Of a stretch of DNA of 64,000 bases, positions 9,510-30,165 are shown piece after piece. The notes beneath the pieces were generated by a model that searched no databases, was not told the DNA's origin, and saw only the letters and a program-made list of their open reading frames with translations. Each line of letters opens with the position of its first letter. The first letter of the stretch is position 1. The stretch comes from an uncultured Bacteroidota bacterium. Lineage in GTDB: Bacteria; Bacteroidota; Bacteroidia; Chitinophagales; Chitinophagaceae. The translations under genes and the position numbers were made by a program. The stretch is from positions 1-64,000 of the forward strand of contig CAIKOJ010000180.1 of NCBI GenBank assembly GCA_903829015.1, written 5' to 3'.

Positions 9510-9788
9510 CCGCCCTGAAAGGGCATCATCCCCTAGCGACGGGCATCGCCCATCGAGACGCCATGCAGTGGATATCGCCCATTGAGACACCGTACGGCAT
9601 CGCCCATCGAGATGACATAGGGTGGGCATCGCCCATCTAGACAACGCACGGCATCGCCATCGAAATACAATACTCGATTCTTGCAATTCCCAACCGCCCT
9701 GAAAGGGCATCATCCCCTAGCGATGGGCATCGCCCATCGAGACAACATGGGTATCGCCCATCGAAACAATTTGGGCATCGCCCCTCGA
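9510..9788. repeat. Hairpin repeat cluster 1 (GCCCTGAAAGGGC / CGATGGGC-ATC-GCCCATCG units)
   Basis: Two about 49-bp copies (9511-9559, 9695-9743) plus about 6 further GGCATCGCCCATCGAGAC-type units between convergent ribF and exoIII. Confidence 0.9.
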
Positions 9789-10553
9789 CTACACATCCAA
9801 TTCCAGAAACACCGGACAATGATCCGAATGCCTCACATCTGGCATTATCTCAGCATGCTTCAGCGACTTTTTAAGCGGCTCACTTACATTGATGTAATCT
9901 ATGCGCCAGCCCTTGTTGTTAGCACGCGCACCGGCAAACTGGCTCCACCATGTATACTGGTGAGGCTCGGTATTGAACTGCCTGAAAGTATCCACATAGC
10001 CATTGTCAAATAGCTTATCCATCCATGCCCTTTCTTCCGGCAGAAAACCTGTGTAGTTCTTATTGCGCACAGGGTCATGAATGTCTATTGCTTTATGGCA
10101 AATGTTGTAGTCTCCGCAAACTATCAGCTTGGGTTGTTTTTTTCTCAGCTCGGCTAGATAATCAAAAAACTCATCCAGCCACTGGTATTTATAAGTCTGT
10201 CTTTCTTCGCCGCTTGTGCCGCTTGGGAAGTAGGCGTTAACTATTGTCACCTTTCCAAAGTCTGCCTGTATAACCCGACCTTCAAAATCACTTTGTTCAA
10301 TACCATGGCCAGTTACTACGTTCTTTAGTTTGATCTTGGTAAGAATTGCCACACCGCTATATCCCTTCTTCTGCGCAGAAAAAGAATATATTTCATACCC
10401 CGCTTCATTGATCTCTGCTTCCGGCACATCTTCTTTGTGGGCCTTTATTTCCTGCAGGCAGATAACATCTGCCGGGTCTGTTTTTAGCCAGTCAATAAAC
10501 CCCTTTCTTACCGCTGCGCGGATTCCGTTTACGTTATATGTAATGATCCTCAT
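9789..10553 (-). CDS. xth: Exodeoxyribonuclease III
   Basis: MRIITYNVNGIRAAVRKGF, CLQEIKAH, GDYNICHKAIDIHDP, RIDYINVSEPL, SDHCPVFLEL. Confidence 0.95.
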   Translation of the reverse strand: MRIITYNVNGIRAAVRKGFIDWLKTDPADVICLQEIKAHKEDVPEAEINEAGYEIYSFSAQKKGYSGVAILTKIKLKNVVTGHGIEQSDFEGRVIQADFGKVTIVNAYFPSGTSGEERQTYKYQWLDEFFDYLAELRKKQPKLIVCGDYNICHKAIDIHDPVRNKNYTGFLPEERAWMDKLFDNGYVDTFRQFNTEPHQYTWWSQFAGARANNKGWRIDYINVSEPLKKSLKHAEIMPDVRHSDHCPVFLELDV

Positions 10554-28809: not shown

Positions 28810-29646
28810 ATGAAATCAGTTGCATTATCAATATTTGCTTTGGGTGCTGTTTTGCTTGCCTCTTCATGTGGAAGCGAGGGCTCAAACAACAAAGAAATTA
28901 AGGATTCTGTGGTAGTAGTTCCGTTGGCGCCGGTTAGTATTGGTACTGTCAGTCCGTCTCCCGATTTTCCGGGTGCAACATTGGCAATCAACTCTGTTAA
29001 AGCTGAAAAAGTAGGCAAAGATTCGGCAAAAGTTACATTTAAGTTTGATGTGAAAAACTACGAACTCAAACTGCAAACCACCGACAACGGCACAAAAATG
29101 TGCAACAATTCAGATAAAGGACAGCACATTCATTTTATTCTTGATAATGCTCCTTACAAAGCATTGTATGAGCCTACCAACGATGTAACGCTGCCCAACG
29201 ACGGCAAAGAACATTACCTGGTGGCATTCCTCTCGCGCTCATATCATGAATCTATAAAGTCAAAAGGCGCCGCATTAGTATATCATTTTAAGATCGATGA
29301 AAAAGGAAATCTGAAGAAACTGGAAGACCCTAAAACGCCTATGATAACCTATAGCCGTCCAAAAGGCGATTACGTAGGAAAAGATACGGCCAACATCTTG
29401 CTCGATTTCTATGTGTGGAATTGCGAACTGGGTGTTAACAGTTATAAAGTAAGAATTGACGCTACGAATGAAGACCGTAGTACCCAAAGGCTAAATGTAC
29501 TTCAGACCGAATGGCACCCATATTTCCTACAGAATCTCGGAACCGGTAAGTGTAAGGTGGTACTCACTCTGCTGGATAAAGACAACAAACCTGTGGAAGG
29601 CCCAATGACATCAGCCACCAGAGAATTTAATTTGAAAGCCCAGTAA
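28810..29646 (+). CDS. Putative lipoprotein of unknown function
   Basis: MKSVALSIFALGAVLLASSCGSE lipobox; TATTTTTG -7 box just upstream. Confidence 0.7.
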   Translation: MKSVALSIFALGAVLLASSCGSEGSNNKEIKDSVVVVPLAPVSIGTVSPSPDFPGATLAINSVKAEKVGKDSAKVTFKFDVKNYELKLQTTDNGTKMCNNSDKGQHIHFILDNAPYKALYEPTNDVTLPNDGKEHYLVAFLSRSYHESIKSKGAALVYHFKIDEKGNLKKLEDPKTPMITYSRPKGDYVGKDTANILLDFYVWNCELGVNSYKVRIDATNEDRSTQRLNVLQTEWHPYFLQNLGTGKCKVVLTLLDKDNKPVEGPMTSATREFNLKAQ

Positions 29647-29765: not shown

Positions 29766-29837
29766 GTCCCCCAAAAATTCAATGCCCTACCTCCGCCAGA
29801 ATCAACACACACACACACGCACACACACGCATTCCCA

Positions 29838-30165
29838 AAGCCCTGAAAGGGCGCAATTCCCCAGCATAGGGCATCGCCCTATGAACTCGCACCCTATGAA
29901 TCGCACCATGGGCATTGCCCTACGAGACCACACGCCACCATCCCACACAAGCCCTGCAAGGGCGTAATCCTCCAGCATAGGGCATCGCCCAATGAATCCA
30001 CGACATATTTACAGCACCCAAGCCCTGCAAGGGCGTAATCCCCCAGCATAGGGCAACGCCCTATGAACTCGCGCCGATGAATCGCACCCTATGAATCGCA
30101 CCCTATGAATCGCGCCATGGGCATCGCCCTATGCCCACACGCCACCACGCACCACGCACCACGCA
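29838..30165. repeat. Hairpin repeat cluster 2 (GCCCTGAAAGGGC / CATAGGGC-ATC-GCCCTATG units)
   Basis: Three about 48-bp copies starting near 29838, 29949, 30020, plus ACCCTATGAATCGC and CACCACG tandems. Confidence 0.9.

Follow-up and report, generated by a model that had tools for sequence, protein, structure and literature searches.

Two hairpin arrays in the window

The window analysed here is a stretch of 64,000 nucleotides, positions 1 to 64,000 of contig CAIKOJ010000180.1 (C180), from the genome assembly GCA_903829015.1 (G000) of an uncultured member of the Chitinophagaceae. Two clusters of short hairpin repeats lie within it. Cluster 2 spans 29838-30133 and comprises three 48-nt units together with degenerate copies of the second hairpin of the unit. 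Its neighbours are a gene without a Pfam match (28810-29646), followed by a short ORF, and, on the other side, an OmpA-family gene on the same strand. A CA-rich microsatellite, ACACACACGCACACACACG, is located at 29808-29830, immediately ahead of the first unit. Each unit is composed of hairpin 1 (GCCCT-GMA-AGGGC, with a GAA or GCA loop), a 12-nt spacer and hairpin 2, which has an 8-bp stem and a 3-nt loop (ATC or AAC). The features of cluster 2 are as follows.

29838..29885, + strand: unit 1; hairpin 1 at 29840-29852, hairpin 2 at 29865-29883, CATAGGGC-ATC-GCCCTATG; 70.3 bits with model R1
29907..29924, + strand: degenerate hairpin-2 copy without hairpin 1, imperfect arms, CATGGGCATTGCCCTACG
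29949..29996, + strand: unit 2; hairpin 1 at 29951-29963, hairpin 2 at 29976-29994 with one pair mismatched (CATA/AATG); 67.3 bits
30020..30067, + strand: unit 3; hairpin 1 at 30022-30034, hairpin 2 at 30047-30065 with loop AAC; 70.6 bits
30082..30111, + strand: tandem duplication of the hairpin-2 tail with a 14-nt period, CCCTATGAATCGCA near 30084 (repeat family D2, spacing 14)
30116..30133, + strand: degenerate hairpin-2 copy without hairpin 1, imperfect arms, CATGGGCATCGCCCTATG

The units start at 29838, 29949 and 30020, and their sequences are as given in an earlier, sequence-only reading of the region. That reading had assigned an ATC loop to every unit of the cluster, which does not hold for unit 3, where the loop is AAC. 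Folded as single-stranded DNA, the cluster 2 units each formed exactly hairpins 1 and 2 (z of -2.3 to -3.9). The 14-nt duplication at 30082..30111 is a sign of local tandem growth.

Cluster 1 spans 9510-9794, with a ribF-like gene on one side and an exonuclease III-like gene on the other, and contains the following features.

9510..9557, + strand: unit 1; hairpin 1 at 9512-9524, hairpin 2 at 9537-9555 with a mismatched pair (CGAC/ATCG); 64.0 bits
9568..9645, + strand: three hairpin-2 copies with tail, in tandem and diverged (family D1)
9694..9741, + strand: unit 2; hairpin 1 at 9696-9708, hairpin 2 at 9721-9739, perfect CGATGGGC-ATC-GCCCATCG; 67.1 bits
9747..9794, + strand: two hairpin-2 copies with tail, in tandem and diverged (family D1)

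Tandem periods of 14 nt and 24-29 nt were found within the clusters. Allowing up to one mismatch, GGGCATCGCCC occurs 11 times in the window, with six occurrences in cluster 1 and five in cluster 2, against a shuffled expectation of 0.62 and a shuffled maximum of 3.

Dispersed subfamilies and paired stem variation

In hairpin 2, cluster 1 has the outer stem CGAT/ATCG and cluster 2 has CATA/TATG, a change that the sequence-only reading had described as occurring on both arms together. The difference between the clusters was confirmed, but not the matching of both arms in every unit; cluster 1 unit 1 and cluster 2 unit 2 carry mismatched pairs, so pairing is strong rather than perfect.

A genome-wide catalogue was built from pattern and covariance-model searches, with a model made from 19 units. 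The covariance model yielded approximately 24 strong-scoring units at 11 sites in the genome, 19 of which were already in the model, leaving only five independent finds. The unit-bearing contigs were C43, C58, C66, C72, C120, C151, C180, C219 and C220. The CATA/TATG subfamily was present on at least three contigs (C180 cluster 2, C72 and C220), usually with a GCA loop in hairpin 1, and the CGAT/ATCG subfamily was found in C180 cluster 1 and on C43, C151 and C120, usually with a GAA loop. The paired change between CATA and CGAT separates two dispersed subfamilies, and the copied entity is the whole 48-nt unit. The earlier suggestion that a stem variant spreads locally was not borne out, as both types are dispersed over several contigs. 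At G000:C25:7682, 9116 and 10550 we observed an identical 14-mer with a 1,434-base period, which suggests a long tandem repeat, perhaps within a large gene.

Homogeneity within a cluster, also proposed from the window, proved to be a tendency and not a strict rule. In the unit's own genome, an arm was shared by 10 of 19 within-locus unit pairs, compared with 33 of 152 between-locus pairs. Across Bacteroidota, the stem was shared in 61% of same-locus unit pairs and 13% of pairs between loci. Homogeneity within loci is thus general, and the arms co-vary both in this genome and across Bacteroidota. Among own-genome units, 95.1% of cells were paired, and both-sided changes occurred in 24 cells compared with 10.5 after shuffling; the covariation score of 0.241 (0.106 shuffled) was destroyed by sliding the partner. 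For Bacteroidota, a single hairpin 2 was taken from each of 60 loci, with the GGG..CCC core as the sole criterion of choice. The four pairs beyond the core were Watson-Crick in 77, 88, 87 and 78% of these loci (38, 32, 41 and 69% after shuffling), and a perfect 4-bp outer stem was found in 37 of the 60, compared with 7.1 after shuffling. The outer stems included CACA, CGAT, CATA, CACC, CGTC, CCCA and CGAG, each with its complement. Hairpin 1 is invariant, whilst in hairpin 2 the core is fixed and the outer stem is free to change while remaining paired.

A Y1 transposase flanked by the units

Three Y1_Tnp genes were identified in the genome. One of these, at C120:35373-35822, encodes a Y1 (HUH) transposase of 150 aa with the motifs DHVH and YIANQHEHH, and is flanked by units that face inward: upstream there are two full units and a solitary hairpin 1, and downstream there is one inverted unit. 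The stems at this locus are CGAT and CACA, and the CATA subfamily is absent there. The enzyme scored 69.5 bits on the NCBIfam IS200/IS605 model (cut-off 55), and fell below the cut-off of the NCBIfam REP transposase model (TnpAREP/RAYT, NF047646) at 28.6 versus 80 bits. Its closest solved relative is the ISHp608 transposase (first match in a profile search, E 2e-12). Residues H55, H57, Y115, Q119, H122 and H123 are invariant in 11 orthologues and 10 diverse members. TnpAY1 subclass 1.2 has been described as a low-copy group of approximately 150 aa with a Y---Q--HH signature, found in Bacteroidetes and Cyanobacteria (PMC6006769), and we classify the C120 enzyme as a putative member on the basis of its signature motif and profile scores, rather than the published class HMMs. 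Stop codons were absent from 90 of 94 full-length relatives. The median dN/dS was 0.05 in the five of 45 pairs for which it could be computed, which is weak evidence because synonymous sites are saturated.

The other two Y1 genes have hairpins of their own. A second subclass 1.2 transposase at G000:C72:16206-16550 (L009) has its own hairpin family, GCCCCATCGGGGCTATCTGTTTGTAG, copies of which also lie near C220:80470-80550 and C72:42338-42430, beside arrays of the first family. The third, at G000:C141:21152-21703 (L011), scored 98 bits on the REP_Tyr_transpos model, carries YIHYNP and is bracketed by a long repeat, present in inverted copies, that contains GCCAGTCGGGAGACTGGC and GTCCGTATGTCTCCGACTACGGA hairpins.

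Relatives of the C120 gene were picked by protein similarity alone. They comprised 11 from the family sample, counting the one in the own genome, plus 80 named loci that come from Bacteroidota apart from a few differently labelled bins; at least two of the loci are duplicates (L190 and L202 duplicate L046 and L047). Hairpin 1 was found within 700 bp of the gene in 88 of these 91 loci, at a density of 3.17 per kb near the gene and 0.11 per kb farther away. The nearest upstream hairpin 1 was on the + strand in 62 of 71 loci, often 21-30 nt ahead of the ATG, and the nearest downstream copy was on the - strand in 61 of 69, most commonly at position +7 after the stop. A logo of 458 units showed a conserved A 5' of hairpin 1 and GNNATA 3' of it, with no GTAG. 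In the Roseivirga bin L191, hairpin 1 alone forms a dense array of 24-nt period next to the gene. At 31 loci of distant subclass 1.2 genes (35-42% identity), repeated hairpins flanked 27, compared with one of 31 for far flanks, and their sequences differed from the hairpin 1/2 family; the association therefore seems to belong to the subclass in these bacteria, rather than to a single gene.

The linkage was also seen between genomes. Within the family, units were present in 11 of 11 genomes with the orthologue and 12 of 139 without it (Fisher p 9e-11), in a unit count that includes the copies flanking the transposase gene. Within the genus, all 12 genomes with the orthologue carried units (9-82 each); among the 23 without a detected orthologue, eight were unit-free and 15 held 2-103 units, and unit numbers were higher where the orthologue was present (p 0.002). 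Some of the orthologue-free, unit-bearing genomes are nearly complete (G177, G168 and G164); in such carriers the gene may have been lost, or may have been missed in assembly at repeats. Genome G123 contains five diverged subclass 1.2 transposase copies and many units. At G081:C3:554627-555075 (L213, L218), a subclass 1.2 gene is split over two frames and adjoins a tandem array of AACCCCGAAGGGGTGA; G081 was considered as a unit carrier with a decayed transposase and rejected, since the split gene is another member of subclass 1.2, associated with the AACCCCGAAGGGGTGA hairpin family, and so cannot account for the units of G081. The hairpin-2 stem type tracks the transposase tree beyond shuffled labels, yet with frequent switches (13 changes; mean of 18.5 for shuffled labels, with none of 300 shuffles as low).

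Origin of the arrays and their relation to known systems

At the site of cluster 1, the same two genes are adjacent in the eleven genus relatives that were compared. In ten of these the site is unit-free, nine having gaps of 34 to 247 bp and G176 a longer unrelated stretch. The nearest relative, G175 (~80% identity), carries one unit at this site; in the window the site holds two units, along with five additional copies of hairpin 2. The pattern is consistent with an element that arrived and then grew in tandem, with the G175 state as the presumed earlier one. Around cluster 2, no units were found in nine relatives near the downstream OmpA-like gene, which is conserved in the genus; the other flank is not syntenic.

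We consider it highly likely that each of the two clusters is an array built from a non-autonomous, REP-like mobile DNA element that belongs to a Y1 subclass 1.2 transposase, within a REPtron-like system, and that the arrays grew by tandem duplication. Against this count the units in genus genomes lacking a detected orthologue, and the absence of the CATA subfamily of cluster 2 from the C120 transposase locus. The two-hairpin repeat is probably copied around Bacteroidota genomes by this small single-strand transposase. The earlier proposal of either selection on structure or a copying mechanism was broadly right, with arm covariation supporting the former and the unit-flanked Y1 transposase the latter. 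The hairpin elements would be mobilised in trans as single-stranded DNA. The enzyme would bind the folded single strand, probably through hairpin 1 and the conserved flank TATNNC, which lies directly 5' of it on the other strand. By analogy with the biochemistry of IS608 and TnpAREP (PMC8266576), it would cut beside the folded hairpin and join the strand elsewhere, with TATNNC, in the place of GTAG, helping to choose the cut. After arrival, the array would grow by tandem duplication, which would explain why units at one site are alike.

Ordinary tandem duplication, without any enzyme, would explain much of this local homogeneity, and an account in which the clusters are plain local tandem repeats arising from slippage, with the transposase uninvolved, gains from the 14-nt and 24-29-nt periods within the clusters and from the single unit of G175 where the window has two. 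Slippage does not, however, account for the spread of one 48-nt unit over many contigs or for its position next to a single gene family at 88 of 91 loci, and it does not make new paired stems. As a complete account it is disfavoured by linkage and dispersal and we regard it as very improbable, though it is retained as the array-growth part of the best explanation. We give equally little credence to the units being the ends of an IS200/IS605-like insertion sequence, in which the entire cassette would be mobile and the arrays would derive from it by internal deletion. The NCBIfam placement of the enzyme with IS200/IS605 transposases (above the cut-off of 55 bits) and the five gene copies in G123 point in that direction; those copies match the query at 53-62%, and so do not appear to be recent duplicates. 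The ends of IS200/IS605 elements carry their hairpins on one strand, unlike the innermost hairpins here, which face each other. In addition, the own genome has one copy of the gene, as do 10 of the 11 family genomes in all, and near-identical multi-copy cassettes were not found there.

The remaining alternative is that the unit is a structured RNA, either the Rfam 'sRNA' Acido-Lenti-1 (RF01687) or a cis-regulatory RNA, and that selection acting on a transcript accounts for the paired changes. Read on the opposite strand, the unit has the same order and sizes of parts as RF01687, namely an 8-bp hairpin, a 12-nt linker with UAUNNC, a 5-bp hairpin with a UUC loop and a trailing U. Most of the Bacteroidota units examined score under the Rfam cut-off of 37 bits, including window units 1 (36.2 bits, - strand, 29839-29883) and 2 (22.0 bits); C72:43757-43801 of the same genome exceeds it at 40.5 bits, as do transposase-adjoining units at L046, L142 and L208. 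In a sample of the phylum, 29 of 297 genomes had matches over the cut-off, and none of 14 control genomes had any match. Acido-Lenti-1 was described from Acidobacteria and Lentisphaerae and rated 'probably' RNA, and not cis-regulatory, by Weinberg et al. 2010 (PMC2864571), and a 2026 paper proposed that copies downstream of Tannerella proteases are regulators (PMC13298647). Beyond Weinberg et al., the family is mentioned in just two papers of the literature covered. Against an RNA stand the tandem, dispersed and patchy distribution of the copies and the identity of their consistent neighbour. When the best Rfam match was taken from each of 30 genomes, the surrounding ~3-kb loci encoded this transposase in six cases, compared with none of 28 control loci and a chance expectation of ~0.2% per locus (assuming 2.5 genes per 4 Mb). 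A scan of cluster 2 for promoters and terminators gave no match, which is weak evidence for Bacteroidota. Together these observations make a structured RNA improbable.

The mobile-element reading places the units beside the REP/BIME sequences and TnpAREP (RAYT) REPtrons of E. coli, Pseudomonas and Stenotrophomonas, which are likewise dispersed, intergenic short palindromes that form arrays, with a low-copy Y1 gene flanked by cognate palindromes in inverted orientation. Hairpin 2 matches REP_Sm in size, the latter being a perfect palindrome of 8 bp whose loop is 3 nt long (PMC8266576). In contrast to those systems, the units lack a GTAG/GTGG foot and combine two unlike hairpins, and the enzyme belongs by its scores to subclass 1.2, outside TnpAREP/RAYT in NCBIfam. 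The GT[AG]G foot is also lacking in TnpAY1 subclasses 2.6 and 3. In subclass 2.6 of Bacteroidetes, as here, the genes have atypical hairpins on their flanks that are also repeated elsewhere in the genome, but the Y motif is YIH[QN]NP, and in the present genome a different hairpin family accompanies the C141 gene with YIHYNP. IS200/IS605 elements (IS608, ISDra2) have the Y1 HUH transposase in common with the present system, but here we saw no mobile cassette with same-strand end hairpins, and the gene is mostly single-copy. In the 2018 survey, subclass 1.2 was recorded as 'REP: no' and generally without IS200 end structures (PMC6006769), whereas repeated hairpins flank 88 of 91 close and 27 of 31 distant members in our samples. 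The string GCCCTGAAAGGGC had no match in a text search of mostly open-access literature, and a 2025 survey of REP sequences (PMC12306157) contained no occurrence of transposase, RAYT or Rfam. The system is REP-like and of a known general kind; the subclass and the two-hairpin architecture are not so described in the mostly open-access literature covered, and earlier descriptions may exist in subscription journals.

We lean towards a broader interpretation, in which subclass 1.2 represents a separate, Bacteroidota-wide two-hairpin REP system; recognition of hairpin 1 would depend on its sequence and that of hairpin 2 chiefly on its shape, allowing the stem of the latter to drift in pairs, and Acido-Lenti-1 would be that DNA element and not an RNA gene. 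With an enzyme of 150 aa and a substrate of 48 nt, the idea is directly testable in vitro. The present results offer a mobile-element account of an intergenic repeat that is common in Bacteroidota, and attribute REP-like repeats to a transposase subclass for which none had been recorded. They also offer a possible explanation for an RNA family that has been without a function since 2010, and call into question the reading of Acido-Lenti-1 copies as regulators, as for those near Tannerella proteases, which may instead be transposase-linked DNA repeats.
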